Shown here piece by piece: positions 2,957 through 43,236 of a stretch of 64,000 bases of DNA (positions are counted from its first letter, which is position 1; each line of letters opens with the position of its first letter). The notes under the pieces were generated by a model. That model ran no database searches. It saw only the letters and a program-made list of their open reading frames with translations, and was not told where the DNA came from. The stretch covers positions 62,001-126,000 of the forward strand of contig NZ_CAJXYQ010000008.1 of assembly GCF_913063105.1 (NCBI RefSeq), in the 5' to 3' direction. The DNA is from an uncultured Draconibacterium sp. (GTDB taxonomy: Bacteria > Bacteroidota > Bacteroidia > Bacteroidales > Prolixibacteraceae). The position numbers were made by a program, and so were the translations under genes.

Positions 2957-4591
2957 ATGAAACCAACTAAAAATAAATCAGCATTAAATAAGATATGTCT
3001 TTTTTTTCTGCCGGTATTAATGTTACTGGTTGCCGAAAAAATAAAAGCACAAGACAATCAGGAACTTACGTGGGATGAACTTGCAGGTAACTATGAATGC
3101 CCCGGGTGGTTCCGCGATGCCAAATTTGGTATCTGGTTCCACTGGGGGCCTCAGGCAGTTCCCGAGCAGGGAGGTGGCTGGTATGCCCGTCATATGTACA
3201 TGAAAGATGTAGGCCGTCAGAAATTTGGTAAAATGGCCCGACCTTACCACGAACAAACTTACGGACACCCCTCTGAATTTGGATTTAAAGATGTAATTAA
3301 CACCTGGAAAGCCGAAAATTTTAACGCCGAAGCATTGGTGAAATTTTCAAAAGAAAACGGTGCGAAATATATTGTCGCTTTGGCCAATCATCACGATCAT
3401 TTCGACCTTTGGAATTCAACCTATCATGAATGGAACTCGGTGAACGTAGGACCGAAAAAGGATATTATCGGCGAATTTGCAGCCGCAACCCGAAACGCCG
3501 GGCTTAAATTTGGTGTAACCAGTCACGACGACCGTTTTCTGAATTGGTGGCTACCGGCCTTTGGAGCCGATGAAACCGGAGAAAAAGCCGGTGTACCCTA
3601 CGATGGACGCTTGACAAAGGAAGATGGGAAAGGCCTTTGGTGGGAAGGACTCGACCCGGCCGATTTATATGGCCCCGCACCTGAAGACCGAACACCCGAA
3701 GTAATTAACGCTATTAAACAAAACTGGGAAAAGCGCCATAAACAATTGGTTGACGATTATAAACCAGATTTATTATACAACGATGGCCTTAATTTTTCGT
3801 ATGGACAGCACGGCAAAGAGGTGGTGCGGCGCTTGTATAACAATAGCCTGAAAGAGAATGGGAAAATTGATGCCGTAATGCTTCTTAAAAGATTGGAGCC
3901 CGGAACGGTAAATGAAGTGGAGTCGGGAGGAAGTAATACTTTGCGTGAATATCCCTGGCAATCGGAAATTACCTTTACCGATTGGTTCTACAAAAAAGAC
4001 CGCCATTTAACACACAATGCCACTACTATTCTGGAAATGTTAATTGATGCGGTGAGTAAAAACGGAAACTTGTTGCTAAGTATGGAATTAAATCCGGATG
4101 GCAGCATACCTTCGGAAATTAAAGAGGAAGTTCTAAAAGTTGGCGACTGGCTAAAAATTAACGGAGAAGCCATTTACGGATCACGCCCCTGGAAAGTATT
4201 TGGCGATGGGAAAGGTGTGCGTGGCGAATCAGTAGAAACCGTGGTTGGCGAACTTCGAAATGCCACAGAAAATCAGAAAAAGGGTGAGCATTTTAACCAG
4301 CGTACAACGGCCACACCGGCATTTGCCCACGACGAAGTGCGCTACACCACAAAAGGTACAGATTTTTACATTATAGTAATGAATCCTGCAGGCGGCAAAT
4401 TTGCCATCCCTTCGCTTGGAAAAAATAGTGAGGTTAATCCTGGCGAATTAATTGCCCTTACCCAATTGTACGATGGCCGGGAAATTACCTTCACACAAAA
4501 CTTTGCAAGTTTGGTAGTGAACATGCCTGCTGTAAACGGGAAAAGCTACCCTGTTGTACTAAAAGCAAAGTTTAAAGACGTGCAGTTTTAA
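2957..4591 (+). CDS. GH29 alpha-L-fucosidase (first of two)
   Basis: Retaining exo-alpha-L-fucosidase of 544 residues. A type I signal peptide (about residues 1-31, ending IKA-Q) sends it to the periplasm. The GH29 N-terminal barrel is clear: FRDAKFGIWFHWG (52-64), the NHHDHFDLW segment (144-152) and KPDLLYNDG, in which Asp276 matches the family nucleophile. A glycine/acid-rich insertion near residues 203-245 and a C-terminal beta-sandwich follow. The acid/base residue is not conserved in GH29 and I do not assign it. It differs strongly from the second GH29 at 25563, suggesting a different linkage. It lies 63 bases after sulfatase 1 and 19 bases before GH3, consistent with one transcript. Confidence 0.93.
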   Translation: MKPTKNKSALNKICLFFLPVLMLLVAEKIKAQDNQELTWDELAGNYECPGWFRDAKFGIWFHWGPQAVPEQGGGWYARHMYMKDVGRQKFGKMARPYHEQTYGHPSEFGFKDVINTWKAENFNAEALVKFSKENGAKYIVALANHHDHFDLWNSTYHEWNSVNVGPKKDIIGEFAAATRNAGLKFGVTSHDDRFLNWWLPAFGADETGEKAGVPYDGRLTKEDGKGLWWEGLDPADLYGPAPEDRTPEVINAIKQNWEKRHKQLVDDYKPDLLYNDGLNFSYGQHGKEVVRRLYNNSLKENGKIDAVMLLKRLEPGTVNEVESGGSNTLREYPWQSEITFTDWFYKKDRHLTHNATTILEMLIDAVSKNGNLLLSMELNPDGSIPSEIKEEVLKVGDWLKINGEAIYGSRPWKVFGDGKGVRGESVETVVGELRNATENQKKGEHFNQRTTATPAFAHDEVRYTTKGTDFYIIVMNPAGGKFAIPSLGKNSEVNPGELIALTQLYDGREITFTQNFASLVVNMPAVNGKSYPVVLKAKFKDVQF

Positions 4592-12041: not shown

Positions 12042-14339
12042 ATGATGAATAAAATACTGATAACGCTCTTGGTTTTAATGAGTTTGTTGGCGTGTGAAAA
12101 TGCAGAAAAACCATCCGGATTTCGCTTACTTTATACCAAACCCGCTGAAATTTGGACAGAAGCTCTGCCCATTGGTAACGGACGAATGGGAGCAATGGTT
12201 TACGGTGGCGTTCAGCAAGAACACATTCAGTTTAACGAGGAGACATTGTGGACGGGCGAACCACACGATTATTCGCACAAGGGAGCAAGCAACTACCTGG
12301 CAGAAATCAGGCAACTGTTAGCAGATGGCAAACAACGCGAGGCGCAAAACCTGGCTTCCGAAAAATTTATGAGTGTTCCGCTGCATCAGAAAGCGTATCA
12401 GCCCTTTGGCGATTTGTATCTCCAATTTCCGGGACATGAGAATTATACGGCTTATCAACGCGAGTTAGATATCGAAAAGGCCCTTGCAAAGACTTCCTAT
12501 ATAGTTGACGGTGTTCAATATAAGCGTGAAGTGTTTGCCTCCTTCCCCAACCAGGTTATAGCGGTAAACCTTAGTGCAGATAAAAAGAAGGCTCTGAATT
12601 TTGAGCTTGCTCTGGATGCTGTTCACGAACAAAAAGCTGTTTTTACCGAAGGAAATACAATGGAGCTGAAAGTAAACGTGAAAGATGGCGCATTGTATGG
12701 CGTGGCAACGCTGGTGGTAAAAACCGATGGCGCATTTGCTGCGGTAGATAACAACATTCAAATAAAGGACGCTTCGGAAGCAACCATCTACCTTTCAGCT
12801 GCAACAAATTATGTAAATTTTAACGACGTTAGTGCCGATGCAAAAAAGCTGGCCGGTGAAAAGTTAAAGCATCTGGAGGGTAAAAAATACAAGGAGTTAA
12901 AAGCCGATCATATTGCCGACTATCAGCAACTTTACAATCGTTTTAAAATTGATTTTGGCGATAACGGCCGTGCAGCCATGACCACTGAAAAGCGCATTGT
13001 TGAATTTGAACGTTTACCGGAAGATCCGCAGTTGCTGGCCTTGTATGTGCAATATGCCCGTTACCTAACCATTGCCGGTAGCCGCGAGGGTACGAGGCCA
13101 ACTACCTTACAGGGAATTTGGAACGATAAAATTCGCCCACCCTGGGAAAGTAAATATACCGTAAACATTAATACCGAAATGAACTACTGGCCGGTGGAAT
13201 TAACCAACCTGCCGGAGTGCCACGAGCCCTTGTTTACCATGCTTAAGGAGGTTGCTGAAACAGGAGCGATTGTGGCCAGAGAACACTACAATTGCGATGG
13301 TTGGGTTCTACATCATAACACAGATATTTGGAGAGGGGCAGCACCTATAAATGCGTCGAATCATGGAATATGGGTAACCGGTGGTGCGTGGTTGTCAACC
13401 CATTTCTGGGAACATTATTTATTTACTCAAGACAAAAAGTTTTTGGAGGAGAACTACGAGTTAATAAAGGGTTCGGCGCAGTTTTTTGCCCAATTTTTAT
13501 ACCGTGATCCCAATACCGGATACCTGATCAGTTCGCCATCCAACTCTCCCGAAATTGGTGGTCTGGTGGCTGGTCCAACCATGGATCATCAAATTATCCG
13601 CGCCTTATTTCGGATTTGCATTGAAGCTTCTGAAAAACTAAACAAAGACCATGCTTTTGCCGAAGAATTAAAAGCCCTGATTCCGCAGATAGCACCCAAC
13701 CAAATTGGGCAGTACGGGCAGTTGCAGGAGTGGTTGGAAGACAAAGATAATCCGGAAGTAAAACACCGCCATGTGTCGCACTTGTGGGCGGTTTATCCGG
13801 GAAGTGAGATTAATCCGGAAGAAACACCAGAGTTGATGAATGCCGCGCAGCAATCGCTCGAATTTCGTGGCGATGGTGGTACCGGATGGAGCCTGGCCTG
13901 GAAAATCAATTACTGGGCGCGTTTTCTCGATGGTAATCATGCTTACAAAATGATTCACCGCCTGCTGAGTCCGGCTATTACTCCCGATAACAAAGAAAGA
14001 GGGGGGTCGTATGTCAACCTTTTCGATGCCCATCCTCCATTTCAGATTGATGGGAATTTTGGCGGTGCCTCCGGAATCATTGAACTGTTGTTGCAAAGTC
14101 ATTTGGGTAAAATTGAGCTTTTGCCAGCCTTACCCAGCGCTCTGCCAAACGGAAACATTTCGGGTGTTTGTGCGCGGGGTGGGTTCGAACTGGCTTTTTC
14201 GTGGAAAGACGGGCAGCTTGAAAAAGTGGAAGTACTTTCAAAGGCCGGCAACACTTGTCACTTAAAATACAACGATACCTTGATTGAATTTGAAACAGAA
14301 AAAGGCAAGAATTATAGTTTTAATGGCGAACTAAAATAA
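12042..14339 (+). CDS. GH95 alpha-L-fucosidase lipoprotein
   Basis: Inverting alpha-L-fucosidase (classically alpha-1,2) of 765 residues. Lipobox LLAC (Cys18). The N-terminal beta domain begins PAEIWTEALPIGNGRMGAM with QFNEETLWTG, diagnostic of GH95. The (alpha/alpha)6 catalytic domain carries NINTEMNYWP (Asn375 and Asn377, the base-assisting pair of the family), a candidate acid Glu504 in NSPEIGG, and Asp670 in DGNFGGASGI. A short C-terminal beta domain closes the protein. It starts 5 bases after sulfatase 4 and ends 8 bases before sulfatase 5. ATG codons at 12042 and 12045 are both possible starts. GH95 also includes L-galactosidases, so the fucose assignment rests partly on the fucose genes downstream. 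Confidence 0.93.
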   Translation: MMNKILITLLVLMSLLACENAEKPSGFRLLYTKPAEIWTEALPIGNGRMGAMVYGGVQQEHIQFNEETLWTGEPHDYSHKGASNYLAEIRQLLADGKQREAQNLASEKFMSVPLHQKAYQPFGDLYLQFPGHENYTAYQRELDIEKALAKTSYIVDGVQYKREVFASFPNQVIAVNLSADKKKALNFELALDAVHEQKAVFTEGNTMELKVNVKDGALYGVATLVVKTDGAFAAVDNNIQIKDASEATIYLSAATNYVNFNDVSADAKKLAGEKLKHLEGKKYKELKADHIADYQQLYNRFKIDFGDNGRAAMTTEKRIVEFERLPEDPQLLALYVQYARYLTIAGSREGTRPTTLQGIWNDKIRPPWESKYTVNINTEMNYWPVELTNLPECHEPLFTMLKEVAETGAIVAREHYNCDGWVLHHNTDIWRGAAPINASNHGIWVTGGAWLSTHFWEHYLFTQDKKFLEENYELIKGSAQFFAQFLYRDPNTGYLISSPSNSPEIGGLVAGPTMDHQIIRALFRICIEASEKLNKDHAFAEELKALIPQIAPNQIGQYGQLQEWLEDKDNPEVKHRHVSHLWAVYPGSEINPEETPELMNAAQQSLEFRGDGGTGWSLAWKINYWARFLDGNHAYKMIHRLLSPAITPDNKERGGSYVNLFDAHPPFQIDGNFGGASGIIELLLQSHLGKIELLPALPSALPNGNISGVCARGGFELAFSWKDGQLEKVEVLSKAGNTCHLKYNDTLIEFETEKGKNYSFNGELK

Positions 14340-32949: not shown

Positions 32950-34533
32950 ATGAGTAAAAAAAATCGCATAGTTGAGTTGTGCTGTTTTGCTGTTTTGGCT
33001 ATAATTTGTTCGTGCAATACTGCCAACAAAGAGCAAGTACGGCCCAATATTGTATTTATAATGAGCGACGACCATGCCTATCAGGCCATTAGTGCATATG
33101 GCCATGGTTTAAACCATACACCCAATATCGATCGCATTGCAGAGGAAGGGGCAATTTTTACCAAAGGGTATGTTACCAACTCGATTTGTGCACCCAGCCG
33201 TGCGGTGATGCTTACCGGCAAACACAGTTTTGTTAACGGGAAAGTGGATAACCAGCAGGCTTTTGACTGGAGCCAGGATAACGTAGCCAAACAGCTGCAA
33301 AAAGCAGGTTACCAAACAGCTATGATTGGCAAAATACATATCGATGGTTTGCCGCAGGGATTTGATTATTCAAACGTTCTGCCGGGGCAGGGGCAATACT
33401 ACAACCCCGATTTTATTGAAAACGGCGTTAAAAAGCAGTACCACGGTTATTGTACGCAAATTACCACCGATATTGCATTAGACTGGTTAAAAAACAAACG
33501 CGATAAAAGCAAGCCATTTCTGATGCTATATCACCAGAAGGCGCCACACCGGACCTGGATGCCCGAGAAAAAGTACCTCGATTTATTTGAGGACTCGACA
33601 TTTACACCGCCCGCCAATTTTTTTGATAATTTTGAAAACCGCCCCGTAGCTGCTGAACATGAAATGGGGATTTGGGAACATATGGATTTGGTGTACGATT
33701 TAAAAATGCTCGATGACGAAGGAGAATTTCAAACCCGTTACCGCCCCAATGCTCAAAATATATACAACCGCATGGACGAAGAACAGCGGGCTGCCTGGGA
33801 TGCTCATTATAAGCCAATTATTGAGGAGTTTAAAGAACTAAAGCCTGAAGGAAAAGAGCTGGCCTTATGGAAATTCAATCGTTACATGAAAGATTACCTT
33901 GCCACCATTCAATCGGTTGACGATGGTGTTGGGCAAGTGCTAGACTATCTTGATGAGGAAGGCCTGGCCGAAAACACCATTGTAATTTATACCTCCGATC
34001 AGGGATTTTACCTGGGCGAACACGGTTGGTTTGATAAACGTTTTATGTACGAAGAGTCGTTTCGTACACCTATTTTAATGCGCTTCCCAAAAGAAATAAA
34101 ACCCGGAACTGTTGTGGATGGACTGGTTCAGAACCTTGATTTTGCTCCAACATTTCTGGATTATGCAGAAACAGCAATTCCTGAAGATATTCAGGGCGAA
34201 TCATTCAGGAGCTTGTCAGAAGGAAAGACCGAAAACTGGCGCGATGCCATTTATTATACTTATTACGAATATCCGGGCGAACACCATGTGCAACGCCATT
34301 ACGGAGTGCGTACCGACCGCTATAAACTCATTCATTTTTATTACGATTCGGATACCTGGGAATTGTACGATCTGGAAGAGGATCCTACAGAGATGACTAA
34401 TTTATACAATAACCCGGAGTACGCTGAAGTACAAAAACAAATGCACGCCAGGCTTATTGAAATTCGAAAAAAATATGGCGATAGCGATGAGTTGAACCGG
34501 TTTCATTTAAATCGTTTTCTGAATAACAGGTGA
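32950..34533 (+). CDS. S1-family sulfatase lipoprotein (sulfatase 9)
   Basis: Sulfatase of 527 residues with lipobox ICSC (Cys22). Metal site FIMSDDHAYQAISAYG, active site CAPSR (Cys80), GKIHIDGLPQGFDY in place of GKWHLG, then HQKAPHRTWMP and SDQGFYLGEHGWFDKR. The last motif ties it to sulfatase 2. The HAYQAISAYG/NHTPNIDRIAEEGA style is common in Bacteroidota sulfatases annotated as iduronate- or mucin-desulfating types, but that is no proof of substrate. It is the last sulfatase of the run, 101 bases before the PhoD-like gene. Confidence 0.92.
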   Translation: MSKKNRIVELCCFAVLAIICSCNTANKEQVRPNIVFIMSDDHAYQAISAYGHGLNHTPNIDRIAEEGAIFTKGYVTNSICAPSRAVMLTGKHSFVNGKVDNQQAFDWSQDNVAKQLQKAGYQTAMIGKIHIDGLPQGFDYSNVLPGQGQYYNPDFIENGVKKQYHGYCTQITTDIALDWLKNKRDKSKPFLMLYHQKAPHRTWMPEKKYLDLFEDSTFTPPANFFDNFENRPVAAEHEMGIWEHMDLVYDLKMLDDEGEFQTRYRPNAQNIYNRMDEEQRAAWDAHYKPIIEEFKELKPEGKELALWKFNRYMKDYLATIQSVDDGVGQVLDYLDEEGLAENTIVIYTSDQGFYLGEHGWFDKRFMYEESFRTPILMRFPKEIKPGTVVDGLVQNLDFAPTFLDYAETAIPEDIQGESFRSLSEGKTENWRDAIYYTYYEYPGEHHVQRHYGVRTDRYKLIHFYYDSDTWELYDLEEDPTEMTNLYNNPEYAEVQKQMHARLIEIRKKYGDSDELNRFHLNRFLNNR

Positions 34534-36635: not shown

Positions 36636-37070
36636 ATGCTGAAAGGAATATCACCTTTATTAAGCCCCGAATTACTTGCATTACTTTGCCGTATGGGCCA
36701 TGGCGACGAAATTGTTTTAGCAGATGCCCACTTCCCGGCTGAAAGTTTTAATAACAATGTACTGCGCGCTGATGGATTAAAAATCCCTGAATTACTGGCT
36801 GCAATCCTACCGCTCTTCGAGCTTGATCAATACACCGACCATCCGCTGATGATGATGAGCGCGGTGGAGGGCGACACCCTTGACCCACAGGTAGAAGACA
36901 GTTATTTGGAGAGTATTCGAAAAACCAATCCAGAAGTTAAGCCGGTTTTACGTATTGAACGCTTTGATTTTTACGAACGAACAAAATCAGCTTTTGCAGT
37001 TGTGGTTACAGGTGAGCTGGCCAAATACGGTAATATAATTCTTAAAAAAGGGGTTACACCCGTAGAGTAG
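36636..37070 (+). CDS. fucU: L-fucose mutarotase (FucU/RbsD family)
   Basis: A 144-residue cytoplasmic mutarotase that interconverts alpha- and beta-L-fucose. [35 protein letters not shown] matches the FucU N-terminus (divided here: [15 protein letters not shown] is the active-site region). [29 protein letters not shown] and the [10 protein letters not shown] end are all FucU-like. Length equals that of the family. It opens the fucose uptake and catabolism set with fucP and an aldolase, and so identifies L-fucose as a major product of the upstream PUL. Confidence 0.94.
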
Positions 37071-37203: not shown

Positions 37204-38505
37204 ATGAAACCAACAAAAACTAAGGTAGTAGAGAAAAAATACCTGTTTCCGTTTATTGTAATAACCAGCTTGTTTGCGTTATGGGGCTTCGCCAACGATA
37301 TTACCAATCCCATGGTTGCAGCATTTAAAACCGTAATGGAAATATCAAATGCAAAAGCCTCGCTGGTGCAGTTTGCTTTTTATGGCGGTTATGCTACTAT
37401 GGCTATTCCTGCTGCTTTATTTGTACAAAAATTCAGTTATAAAAAGGGTATACTTTTAGGTTTAGCATTGTATGCCACGGGAGCCTTGCTTTTTTGGCCT
37501 GCCGCTCAATTTCAGGCTTTCGGATTCTTTCTGGTTTCGCTGTATATTTTAACCTTTGGCCTGGCTTTTCTCGAAACAACGGCTAATCCGTTTATCCTAT
37601 CCCTGGGTGCTGAAGAAACCGCAACACGCCGCTTAAACCTTGCACAGGCTTTTAACCCAATGGGATCGCTGCTAGGCATGTTTGTCGCTTCGCGCATTGT
37701 TTTGGCGGCTTTAGAGTCGGATAAAAGAAATGCAGCGGGCGAACTTATCTTCCCCATGCTTGATGAGGCAACAAAAGCTGCTATTCGAACCAACGATCTG
37801 ATGATTATACGGAACCCATACGTAATTTTAGGTCTGGTGGTAATCGCCATGTTTGTGGTTATTGTACTCACTAAAATGCCGCAAACCGGGCATGCCAACG
37901 AAATTCATCCCATGCAATCGTTTAAACGCCTGATAAGTAACCGTGTTTACCGCGAAGGTGTTCTGGCTCAGGTGTTTTACGTAGCTGCTCAAATTATGTG
38001 CTGGACATTTATAATTCAATATGCTGATAACCTGGGGATTGATAAGGCCACCGCACAAATGTACAATATTGTTGCAATGGGCATTTTTCTGGGAAGCCGC
38101 TTTATAAGCACCTTACTGATGAAATATGTAAATTCGAGGCGATTACTATTGTTTTTTGCCATTGGAGGTATGTGCACCATTACCGGAACCATTTTTATTG
38201 AAGGCATGGCAGGCTTGTATTGTCTGGTGGCAACTTCTGCATTTATGTCACTGATGTTTCCAACAATTTATGGAATTGCTCTTGAAGGTATTGGACAGGA
38301 TGCCACCCTGGGTGCCGCAGGTTTGGTTATGGCAATTGTTGGAGGTGCTTTAATGCCACCTCTGCAGGGTACTATTATCGATATGGGACAAATTGGAAAT
38401 ATGCCTGCAGTTAATGTATCCTTTGTTTTGCCGCTAATAAGCTTTGTGGTAATTGCCACGTATGGCTACAGAACCTATAAATTTTATAAGCAAGACTCAA
38501 ACTAG
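37204..38505 (+). CDS. fucP: L-fucose:H+ symporter, MFS (FucP family)
   Basis: A 433-residue inner-membrane permease with about 12 hydrophobic helices. It begins FPFIVITSLFALWGFANDITNP, split by the conserved ND pair at residues 31-32, then VQFAFYGGYATMAIPAAL, YATGALLFWPAA and the FLETTANPF motif with Glu124, matching the essential Glu135 of Escherichia coli FucP as I recall it. In an ungapped comparison the other E. coli proton-coupling residue, Asp46, falls on Asn35, while an Asp occurs three residues earlier (Asp32). This ANDITNPM form is, to my memory, usual in Bacteroidota FucP proteins. It is 133 bases after fucU and 103 bases before the aldolase. Confidence 0.93.
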   Translation: MKPTKTKVVEKKYLFPFIVITSLFALWGFANDITNPMVAAFKTVMEISNAKASLVQFAFYGGYATMAIPAALFVQKFSYKKGILLGLALYATGALLFWPAAQFQAFGFFLVSLYILTFGLAFLETTANPFILSLGAEETATRRLNLAQAFNPMGSLLGMFVASRIVLAALESDKRNAAGELIFPMLDEATKAAIRTNDLMIIRNPYVILGLVVIAMFVVIVLTKMPQTGHANEIHPMQSFKRLISNRVYREGVLAQVFYVAAQIMCWTFIIQYADNLGIDKATAQMYNIVAMGIFLGSRFISTLLMKYVNSRRLLLFFAIGGMCTITGTIFIEGMAGLYCLVATSAFMSLMFPTIYGIALEGIGQDATLGAAGLVMAIVGGALMPPLQGTIIDMGQIGNMPAVNVSFVLPLISFVVIATYGYRTYKFYKQDSN

Positions 38506-38608: not shown

Positions 38609-39904
38609 ATGAGAAAACTGAATACAAAATGGATGCATCCCCGCGATCAGATTATCATGATTATTGATAAGATCTACAAAGGAGGACTAACCACAACCTC
38701 CGGCGGAAACATCTCAATAATTGATGACAATGGCGATGTTTGGGTAACCCCATCAGCTATCGACAAGGGAACTTTGCGTGCTTCTGATATTGTTTGTGTG
38801 CGAAACGATGGAACCATTGAAGGAAGACACAAACCTTCATCCGAGTATCCGTTCCATATTGCAATTTACAAATGCCGGCCCGAAATAAAGGCCGTTATAC
38901 ATGCACATCCTCCGGCATTGGTTTCGTTTAGTATCGTTCGCCAAATACCCGACCCGAACGTATTGCCACAGGCTAAGAATGTAATTGGCCCAATTGGCTA
39001 TGCACCTTATGCTTTGCCCGGTAGCAACGAGTTGGGCGATGTTATTGCCGAAGAATTTAAAAAAGGCGTAAATGCTGTTATTATGGAAAACCACGGTACT
39101 GTGGTTGGCGGTGTAAACCTTAGCGATGCTTATCAGCGTTTTGAAACCATGGAATTTAGTGCACGCACACTTATTAACGGGAGTACCATTGGAAAGCCCA
39201 ATTACCTGAGTGATGCGCAAATAGATGAATTTGAAAACCAAGTGCCAAAGCTTTTGCCCGAGATGGAAGAGGTGAGTTATCCCTCGGATGAACGGGCAAT
39301 ACGCGAGCAAATACAGCGAATTGTATTGCGTGCCTGCGAGCAGGGCTTAATGATTAGCTCGTACGGAACGGTGTCGGTTAGGTGGAAAGAAAATGATTTT
39401 TTGATTACGCCTACTAATGTGGCGCGTTGGGATATTCAACTAAAAGATATTGTGCAGATTAAGGATGGAAAGCGTGAGCCGGGAAAAGTTCCAAGTCGTT
39501 CAACATGGTTACACCAGGAAATATACAAGCGCAATCCGCACATTAATTCCATTATTTTAACTCAAACGCCATATTTGATGGGGTATAGTGTTACCGGCGA
39601 AAAAATTGATGTACGAACAATTCCTGAAAGTTGGATATTTCTTCAGGATATACCAAATATGCCTTTTGGTTCGCATTTCGCAGGCGAAGAAGCAATTTTA
39701 AATACCATTTCGGAAAATACGCCAGCGGTAATTATTAATAACGATTCGGTATTGGTAACCGGAGATAAATTACTGGGAACTTTCGACCGCCTTGAGGTTG
39801 CCGAGTTTAGTGCAAAATCATTAACAATGGGGGCTTCGCTGGGTAAGCTAATTCCTATAAACGACGAGCAGGTGGAAGATTTAAGAAAGAAATTTCTGAG
39901 TTAA
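38609..39904 (+). CDS. Double-domain class II aldolase (L-fuculose-phosphate aldolase-like), second domain degenerate
   Basis: A 431-residue protein made of two class II aldolase/adducin domains (about 1-205 and 225-431), where a single-domain FucA has about 215 residues. Domain 1 keeps all catalytic features: SSEYPFH with Glu79, HAHPP with His98 and His100, and ENHGT with His162 as zinc ligand. Domain 2 aligns well (SRSTWLHQEIYK against SSEYPFHIAIYK) but the equivalents are Ser298, Thr318, Thr320 and Asp379, so it cannot bind zinc or catalyse in the usual way. It likely cleaves fuculose-1-phosphate to DHAP and lactaldehyde using domain 1, with domain 2 structural or regulatory. The gene ends at a bidirectional terminator. 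Confidence 0.88.
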   Translation: MRKLNTKWMHPRDQIIMIIDKIYKGGLTTTSGGNISIIDDNGDVWVTPSAIDKGTLRASDIVCVRNDGTIEGRHKPSSEYPFHIAIYKCRPEIKAVIHAHPPALVSFSIVRQIPDPNVLPQAKNVIGPIGYAPYALPGSNELGDVIAEEFKKGVNAVIMENHGTVVGGVNLSDAYQRFETMEFSARTLINGSTIGKPNYLSDAQIDEFENQVPKLLPEMEEVSYPSDERAIREQIQRIVLRACEQGLMISSYGTVSVRWKENDFLITPTNVARWDIQLKDIVQIKDGKREPGKVPSRSTWLHQEIYKRNPHINSIILTQTPYLMGYSVTGEKIDVRTIPESWIFLQDIPNMPFGSHFAGEEAILNTISENTPAVIINNDSVLVTGDKLLGTFDRLEVAEFSAKSLTMGASLGKLIPINDEQVEDLRKKFLS

Positions 39905-41919: not shown

Positions 41920-43236
41920 TTATTCAACATTTCGAACCAGTCGAACGTAGTTGTAATAGCGTTCTGCATCTTCTCCTGCCGGGCCATCAATGTCTTTTGT
42001 GTCAAACCGAACGGCACCTGCTCCGTGAAAGTCTTCGCCCTGGTCGTTAACAGCTCTACCTAGCGAAATATACCAGGCGTAATAATAGGGTTGTCCTTTT
42101 GAAAAATTTGCCGATGTGCTTGTCCAGTAATAAGCGTAGTCGTCGTAACCTGCTTCGCTGGTAATTTGTGTACAATTAAATATGGGGTCTATGGCCGGGC
42201 CAACTTTATCGGGGTCGGTTGCTGTTGGCGAATAAGCATAATCAACAATAGCCTGGTGTTCTTTTACATTGGGCAGTCTCCAATCGTCGTATCCGGCAAA
42301 GGTCGAGTTTTCGGCAAACGAAAGAGCATCTTCCCAAACCATGCCTTCGCCACTGTCGTCTTGTGTCCACATCAGACCGGTTGATTTGTCGGTTATTGTT
42401 CCGTCGCCGTTATCAACATAATCGTTGGCACCATACTCGTCGCCACGAACCGCACGAATGTATTTTGCCAAAGGACTGCCCATTGTTCCCGTTCCTTCTC
42501 CCGGAGGTGGAGGAGTGCCTGTACCGGTGCTGTCGCTTGGTGCGGTTCCTGTACCAGTTGGTGCTCCGTCAGTTGGAGGTGCACCGGAATCGTCTCCTTC
42601 CATTTCAGAGCCGGCAGCGTAAGCTTTTATATGTCCGGTAACGTGGTTAACTCCAAAGGCGGCATTATCCTGCCCTTCAACTGTGGTTCCAACATAGCGG
42701 TTGCCCGACCAAAATTGTTCTGATTTGTCGACAATGCCCGAAGCCAGTTTGAAATAAGTGGTGTCGAGATATGGCCACCCTTTACCAAAATCGCTAATCG
42801 AGAATAATTCTTTCAGACTCGGGGCACGCCAGTCATCGTAACCGGCCAGTTCAAGATTTTCGCAATATTCAATTGCTTCGTCGTAGGTCATTTTTTCGGG
42901 TAGGGGAATGGTTTGCCACATTAACCCGGTGTTTATGTCAGATGTGGTTCCATCGCCATTGTCAACATACGACATGGTAGCCCCTTTAAGATAATTTCCA
43001 TCTTGCCCAAAAAAAGCATCGCCTTCACTTAGGTTGTATAGTTCTGCACCATCGGCATCGTAAATAGAAGTTTGCCCCGAGGCTACCAGGGTATAATCGT
43101 AAGTTATTATTACATCCAGCTCTTCCGATGTTATGTCGCCATCGTCGTTTTGGCAGCCAATAAGCAAACCAACTGGGATTAGTAAGGCAAACAATCTAAC
43201 AAATAATTTTCTGTGTTCTGTTTTCGAATTTCCCAT
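41920..43236 (-). CDS. Surface-type lipoprotein with two DUF1566 domains
   Basis: A 438-residue lipoprotein (lipobox LIGC, Cys28). The residues after the Cys are QNDDGDITSEE, an acidic run that fits the Bacteroidota surface-export signal, so it is probably displayed outside. Two DUF1566 (Lcl-like) repeats are clear: YVDNGDGTTSDINTGLMWQ to YDDWRAPSLKELFSI (about 90-155) and YVDNGDGTITDKSTGLMWT to YDDWRLPNVKEHQAIVDYA (about 275-340). A low-complexity Gly/Thr/Pro linker (about 220-260) separates them. Function is unknown; DUF1566 proteins resemble C-type-lectin-like adhesins or FimH/Lcl-type surface proteins. It neighbours the kinase/regulator pair, which has a Pro/Gly-rich external loop. Confidence 0.85.
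   Translation of the reverse strand: MGNSKTEHRKLFVRLFALLIPVGLLIGCQNDDGDITSEELDVIITYDYTLVASGQTSIYDADGAELYNLSEGDAFFGQDGNYLKGATMSYVDNGDGTTSDINTGLMWQTIPLPEKMTYDEAIEYCENLELAGYDDWRAPSLKELFSISDFGKGWPYLDTTYFKLASGIVDKSEQFWSGNRYVGTTVEGQDNAAFGVNHVTGHIKAYAAGSEMEGDDSGAPPTDGAPTGTGTAPSDSTGTGTPPPPGEGTGTMGSPLAKYIRAVRGDEYGANDYVDNGDGTITDKSTGLMWTQDDSGEGMVWEDALSFAENSTFAGYDDWRLPNVKEHQAIVDYAYSPTATDPDKVGPAIDPIFNCTQITSEAGYDDYAYYWTSTSANFSKGQPYYYAWYISLGRAVNDQGEDFHGAGAVRFDTKDIDGPAGEDAERYYNYVRLVRNVE

Follow-up and report, generated by a model that had tools for sequence, protein, structure and literature searches.

What does the second half of a double aldolase do once its own catalytic residues are gone? The question is raised by ALD2, a gene that comes after fucU and fucP in a stretch of DNA from an uncultured Draconibacterium sp. 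(the window, that is, the whole 64,000 nucleotides analysed; Table 1). The original prediction described its product as two class II aldolase domains end to end, of which the second would be catalytically dead and could either supply half of a subunit interface or sense a metabolite. Three papers bear on these options: the class II aldolase fold has its active site in a cleft with the adjacent subunit (PMC11841055), FucA has four active sites, each between two adjacent subunits (PMC11274987), and Tyr113' of FucA and Glu171' of RhaD, each contributed by the adjacent monomer, are central to protonation (PMC6202814).

Table 1 Features of the window that bear on the double aldolase, with positions counted from its first letter.
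Feature	Position	Strand	Remark
ALD2, double-domain class II aldolase	38609..39904	+	ATG start, 431 aa + stop
Domain 1 (D1), residues 1-222, zinc/base half-site	38609..39274	+	fold match FucA/RhaD
Domain 2 (D2), residues 223-431, without zinc triad, putative donor of trans loop	39275..39901	+	fold match FucA/RhaD
Glu79 codon (column of RhaD Glu117 / FucA Glu73)	38843..38845	+	D1 80/80
His98-Ala99-His100 codons, zinc ligands 1 and 2	38900..38908	+	D1 80/80
His162 codon, zinc ligand 3	39092..39094	+	D1 80/80
Gln121 codon in D1, trans Glu apparently lost	38969..38971	+	Q 78, R 1, K 1 (n = 80)
Glu340 codon in D2, column of RhaD Glu171'	39626..39628	+	80/80, then 13/13 and 9/9
Putative donor loop of D2, RTIPESWIFLQD (336-347)	39614..39649	+	invariant in 77 rows (entropy 0); first among 420 12-mers
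fucU, L-fucose mutarotase	36636..37070	+	NF011949, 206 bits (cut-off 141)
fucP, L-fucose:H+ symporter	37204..38505	+	TIGR00885, 586 bits (cut-off 280)
Sulfatases	1391-2893 and 32950-34533	+	Pfam
GH29 alpha-L-fucosidase	2957-4591	+	Pfam
GH95 alpha-L-fucosidase	12042-14339	+	Pfam

Both halves of ALD2 keep the aldolase fold

Pfam finds Aldolase_II (PF00596) twice in ALD2 and nothing else (234 bits in total, cut-off 22.2), and in the genome search each domain alone scores above the cut-off (161.1 and 77.7 bits). The full-length AlphaFold2 model, computed from a 40-row alignment, reaches a pLDDT of 91.8 and a pTM of 0.89. Inside this model, D1 has E. coli FucA among its best structural matches (Z 24-25) and matches RhaD with a Z of about 19, and D2 modelled alone from 22 rows (pLDDT 81.7) matches FucA with a Z of up to 23.8 and RhaD with up to 19.7. 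The fold is therefore kept in D1 and in D2, as originally proposed for both the end-to-end arrangement and the scaffold of the second domain.

Sequence sets

Residue counts rest on the following sets. From 80 loci of close relatives, taken as Bacteroidota, we built a 77-row alignment that holds 75 of these loci, the window copy and a paralog from the same genome (L082); five loci (L025, L049, L077, L079 and L080) have no full-length open frame and were left out. Counts over 80 rows add L104, L105 and L143. Two further sets of double proteins, one of 13 (10 new, 3 common to the 80) and one of 9 (4 new, 5 letter-identical to earlier rows), bring the total to 94 sequences, whose distinctness was confirmed. 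Some copies are broken: a stop separates D1 from D2 in L025 (5992-7290) and another lies inside D2 in L160, and towards the end of D1 the frame changes in L080 (6001-7295) and apparently also in G396 (C1:2366940-2368108), which may be either real decay or assembly error. The open frame of L160 stops too early for its third zinc column to be read. To pair the columns of D1 and D2, we aligned the two domains from many relatives to E. coli FucA, RhaD and AraD as well as to single-domain relatives.

The two domains lack residues of opposite half-sites

The zinc triad and the acidic base are present in D1 of 80/80 double proteins and in D2 of 0/80. In the window copy, Glu79, His98, His100 and His162 of D1 face Ser298, Leu317, Gln319 and Asp379 of D2, so the four D1 residues named beforehand, as well as Ser298 and Asp379, were placed correctly, and Thr318 and Thr320 result from a slip of one residue. 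Over the 80 rows, the D2 column opposite Glu79 holds Ser (46), Ala (32), Val (1) and Met (1); that opposite His98 holds Leu (36), Met (22), Ile (7), Cys (6), Thr (5), Ser (2), Phe (1) and Val (1); that opposite His100 is Gln throughout (80); and that opposite His162 is Asp (74) or Asn (6). Among the 94 distinct doubles, 2 (L101 and L102) keep a relic His at the first ligand position of D2 and 7 (L158-L164) keep one at the second ligand position; two relics in the same D2 occur in none. Loss of the triad and the Glu is thus fixed across the family and therefore not due to chance, and D2 is a real pseudo-domain with relics in some lineages, which agrees with the expectation that all its zinc ligands and its catalytic Glu have been replaced.

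The reverse holds at the column of RhaD Glu171, where D2 has Glu in 94/94 distinct doubles and D1 in 0/94, the latter carrying Gln, Lys or Arg instead. This extends to the 10 new divergent doubles, in which Glu in D2 is accompanied by Lys (7) or Gln (3) in D1, and to the 4 further new ones, where D1 has Gln. The combination of a zinc half in D1 and a trans acid column filled in D2 is found in 94/94 sequences, and a reversed or both-in-both arrangement in 0/94. Residue 121 of D1 and residue 379 of D2 do not covary visibly, by eye, in the divergent doubles.

Across 44 single-domain proteins, the Glu171 column holds Glu (28), His (11), Leu (3) or Gln (2); all 25 that score more than 100 bits with the D1 model, the nearest among the 44, have Glu, and the 16 that lack it are more distant types. 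Because most of these rows had come from the D2 profile, we made a control set with the D1 profile, and the zinc triad, the base and the Glu are all present in 26/26 of its single-domain matches that were read, namely the best-scoring ones with a locus given (14 of them common to the 44, and about as many weaker matches lying beyond them). With Glu present in relatives fetched by D1 itself, it is most simply seen as the ancestral state, lost in D1.

Two other candidates for a trans residue or marker were considered and rejected. FucA-like chemistry with a trans Tyr fails at the FucA Tyr113 column, which, in an alignment with gaps in this loop, has no Tyr in either domain (Ile, Val, Leu or Phe in D1; Ile in 80/80 in D2). 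At the FucA Phe206 column, Phe429 of D2 is fixed and D1 is mixed, but we do not count the C-terminal tail as a further reciprocal marker because most single-domain relatives differ at this column.

The Glu340 loop is the most conserved segment

When all 12-mers of the protein are ranked, the D2 loop that bears Glu340 comes first, ahead of the zinc motif, with an entropy of 0 compared to a mean of 0.868 for its D1 counterpart. In the most divergent doubles this D2 loop reads RTIPES or RTIPEC and then varies. Against the paralog in the same genome, which is 88% identical, dN is 0.087 in D1 and 0.070 in D2 with dS saturated (a D1 figure for L024 was left out, as it crosses an indel). We therefore reject D2 as a decaying remnant: its dN is as low as that of D1 and its loop is invariant.

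In blocks of ten residues, the loop region has a pLDDT of 66, 48, 76 and 78 when D2 is modelled alone and of about 96, 85, 84 and 91 in the full chain, and the last three blocks of D2 have 62, 58 and 56 compared to 92, 88 and 81; two other blocks drop by about 12, and the remainder by less. The drop fits a loop that would need D1 as its partner, in a comparison confounded by the different alignments of the two runs (22 and 40 rows).

Distribution and origin of the double form

Double proteins occur in 6 of 395 sampled Bacteroidota genomes, including that of the window (D2 profile, more than 200 bits, among the candidates scored), and below them, near 108 bits or less, come single-domain frames or D1 halves. 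In two orders that were searched further, 8 of 164 genomes in one and 4 of 98 in the other have the double form; in the genus, 21 of 37 do. One genome of the same species (G640, 99% complete) has no ALD2 at an E value of 1e-60; the genome of the window has two. In a tree of 53 chosen sequences, D1 forms one clade (support 99/97) and D2 another (100/100), so that one fusion is enough to account for the family. Support for a sister relation of the two clades is low (59/8), and D1 lies nearest to two RhaD-type rows (91/82) on long branches; the family may equally well have arisen by fusing two different aldolases or by duplicating one.

Gene context points to rhamnose and, in the window, fucose

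Upstream of fucU, positions 1-36140 of the window hold a long series of forward-strand genes for sulfatase-like proteins and glycoside hydrolases, which, besides the fucosidases and sulfatases of Table 1, includes GH30, GH92 and a rhamnosidase-like protein by Pfam. This series resembles a utilisation locus for sulfated fucan or glycan that would feed fucU-fucP-ALD2. The Lcl_C-domain protein encoded at 41920-43236 on the reverse strand starts like a lipoprotein and contains a Gly/Thr/Pro linker of low complexity.

In the same genome, the paralog is the last gene of the rhamnose operon on contig 14 (rhaT, rhaM, rhaA and an FGGY kinase, preceded by a gene that is AraC-like by eye), and contig 14 has no PF00596 match besides it. 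Fucose isomerase and fuculokinase are on contig 5 (L090:10007-14125), where fucI and fucK adjoin a RhaD-type aldolase of 265 residues that passes the PRK03634 cut-off for rhamnulose-1-phosphate aldolase. The aldolase types thus look swapped relative to E. coli, with the RhaD type among fucose genes and ALD2 in the rhamnose operon.

Among the 80 loci of relatives, 46 have at least two rhamnose genes of the reference set and 47 a rhamnose isomerase, compared to 3 with at least two fucose genes (L048, L057 and L074) and 26 without any rha or fuc gene of that set; gene identities are NCBIfam matches of representatives, and a kinase counted as rhaB is an FGGY kinase by Pfam only. A RhaEW-type aldolase is also present in 24 of the 46 rhamnose loci, and the other 22 have neither a RhaEW- nor a RhaD-type gene in the stretch examined. 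One of the fucose loci, L057, runs fucI, FGGY kinase, fucU, fucP, ALD2, fucO. Some divergent doubles are near rhamnose genes (L172 with rhaT and rhaM, L169 with rhaA), and others have at most a distant kinase match from the reference set nearby.

ALD2 also recurs in other settings. In L063, L066-L071 and L073-L076 it follows a run, complete or partial, of a protein without a family match (c14), a RhaEW-like aldolase/dehydrogenase (c2) and an alcohol-dehydrogenase-like protein (c11), a run that by eye is found without ALD2 on contig 5 of the window's genome. In L006, L007 and L008 it adjoins 5'-nucleotidase-like genes and lnt, outside a sugar cluster.

Based on these neighbours, L-rhamnulose-1-phosphate is the expected main substrate of the family, and L-fuculose-1-phosphate, alone or in addition, that of the window copy. 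The label fuculose-phosphate-aldolase-like in the original prediction suits the fold of D1 and the neighbours in the window, but the family is mainly found beside rhamnose genes, its trans acid column is of the RhaD kind (Glu) rather than the FucA kind (Tyr113'), and ALD2 reaches the cut-off of none of the 25 NCBIfam models listed. At four positions (P116, I126, S184 and G325) the window copy departs from a residue shared by at least 90% of the other 76 aligned proteins, with Ile at position 126 where 76/76 others have Cys; perhaps these changes reflect a changed specificity.

A proposed composite active site shared by two domains

We propose, with a probability of roughly 0.7, that ALD2 of these marine Bacteroidota is a composite-site aldolase. 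Two chains would assemble into a D1-D2-D1-D2 ring with pseudo-fourfold symmetry, where single-domain class II aldolases form a homotetramer. D1 would give the zinc site (His98, His100 and His162), the base Glu79 and the phosphate-binding loop, and the neighbouring D2 the trans acid Glu340, as Glu171' does in RhaD, with the catalytic roles of Glu and Tyr carried over by analogy from other enzymes. The dimer would then have two composite sites instead of four, and would cleave L-rhamnulose-1-phosphate and/or L-fuculose-1-phosphate to DHAP and L-lactaldehyde as a 6-deoxyketohexose-1-phosphate aldolase. Its other two interfaces, between the zinc-less D2 pocket and the Gln121 loop of D1, would be dead from both sides, each domain having lost after fusion the half for which there was no further use. 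In such a ring, D1 sites always meet D2 loops and D2 pockets always meet D1 loops, an arrangement that predicts the losses observed; as each domain has lost a different half, neither D1 with D1 nor D2 with D2 should make a proper site.

The distribution of Glu between the domains, together with its place in the most conserved loop, suggests that D2 is not a passive or sensory pseudo-domain but probably supplies the trans half of the D1 site. As far as sequence goes, this favours the earlier idea that D2 provides half of an interface and makes it more specific, since only D2 retains the trans Glu that D1 appears to have lost. The term pseudo-enzyme is apt in that D2 has neither triad nor base, but 'dead' is misleading for a domain that most likely provides a catalytic residue.

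The D2 pocket itself is less easily accommodated. M248, G253, S296 and Q319 have an entropy of 0 and R297 of 0.1, more than a wholly dead pocket would need, which counts against the composite-site model as it stands. It may be that the opposite half-sites were lost as proposed and that the interface between these four residues and Gln, Lys or Arg121 of D1 was remodelled into a regulatory or specificity site, allowing one family to act on both rhamnulose-1-phosphate and fuculose-1-phosphate, an elaboration that we regard as unlikely. The same invariance despite loss of the zinc site could also speak for a regulatory pseudo-enzyme domain, whose altered pocket binds a metabolite such as a sugar phosphate and tunes D1. 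This is improbable, as the 12 pocket positions have a mean entropy of 0.488 in D2 compared to 0.023 in D1, L317, S298 and T269 vary widely, conservation is strongest in the donor loop and not in the pocket, and the loss of the trans Glu from D1 is left without explanation. We therefore reject metabolite sensing as the main role of D2, an idea for which, those invariant residues aside, there is little support.

D2 could instead merely stabilise D1, with Glu340 and its loop structural and D1 using an acid of its own. The C-terminal helix of D2 and Phe429 (Phe in 80/80) are strongly conserved, as for packing, but D1 lacks both the Glu of RhaD and the Tyr of FucA at the trans columns as aligned (Gln, Lys or Arg and Ile, Val, Leu or Phe, respectively), and Glu340, fixed in all 94 distinct proteins, aligns with a residue known to act as a catalytic acid in trans, so we give a pure scaffold little credence. 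That D2 has a different activity of its own, with another metal site or none, is very improbable: the low dN and the conserved polar replacements of two zinc ligands (Q319 and D379) would be compatible with it, but the near-invariant residues of D2 contain no alternative His/Cys cluster (the only His is H302, which aligns with H83 of D1, and the only Cys C243), and the phosphate-site Asn is replaced by Thr, Val or Ile.

If the composite-site model is true, ALD2 is a clean natural case of a symmetric homo-oligomer turned into an obligate asymmetric one, in which each copy, after fusion, loses what the other supplies, and the order of loss could be tested in those lineages that retain a relic His in D2. 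The model also predicts the rhamnulose-1-phosphate aldolase for those Bacteroidota rhamnose loci that have no RhaEW- or RhaD-type gene in the stretch examined (22/46), and probably an aldolase for some fucose loci too.

Comparison with known aldolases

None of the 25 NCBIfam models listed for ALD2, those of FucA and RhaD included, reaches its cut-off. By this measure, ALD2 is not a FucA (TIGR01086, 122 of 400 bits) and not a RhaD (65.9 of 170 and 41.9 of 401 bits). A search of the full-text literature, on the level of titles and the starts of abstracts and with most subscription papers outside its coverage, returned no description of a double PF00596 protein.

The closest single-domain sequences by HMM score are Bacteroidota PF00596 proteins such as L106 and L108 (115-149 bits with the D1 model), which differ from ALD2 in that the zinc triad, base and Glu are in one chain (26/26). 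One of these relatives (L106:1480-2253) has a C-terminal extension, the last stretch of which is reminiscent of a microcompartment encapsulation peptide.

RhaEW, like ALD2, is a two-domain PF00596 protein of rhamnose clusters, but its second domain is a short-chain dehydrogenase instead of a second aldolase fold (PMC3870299, available passages). We rejected ALD2 as a RhaEW, as Pfam finds only Aldolase_II, twice. Rodionova et al. describe RhaD in Bacteroidales and RhaEW in Bacteroidetes, and the passages available from that paper name no double aldolase (PMC3870299).

FucA is among the nearest solved folds for both ALD2 domains, and the window copy has fucU and fucP as neighbours, but FucA is a single-domain homotetramer and its trans Tyr113' is absent from both ALD2 domains as aligned. 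The likeness to E. coli RhaD is closer in residues: the columns of the zinc triad and Glu117 are kept in D1, that of Glu171 is kept in D2, and the family is mostly found beside rhamnose genes. ALD2 differs from RhaD in being two fused domains of FucA size without the larger insertions of RhaD, and in having its half-sites split between two different domains. As we read it, ALD2 would work like a RhaD whose two half-sites have been divided between two fused domains.
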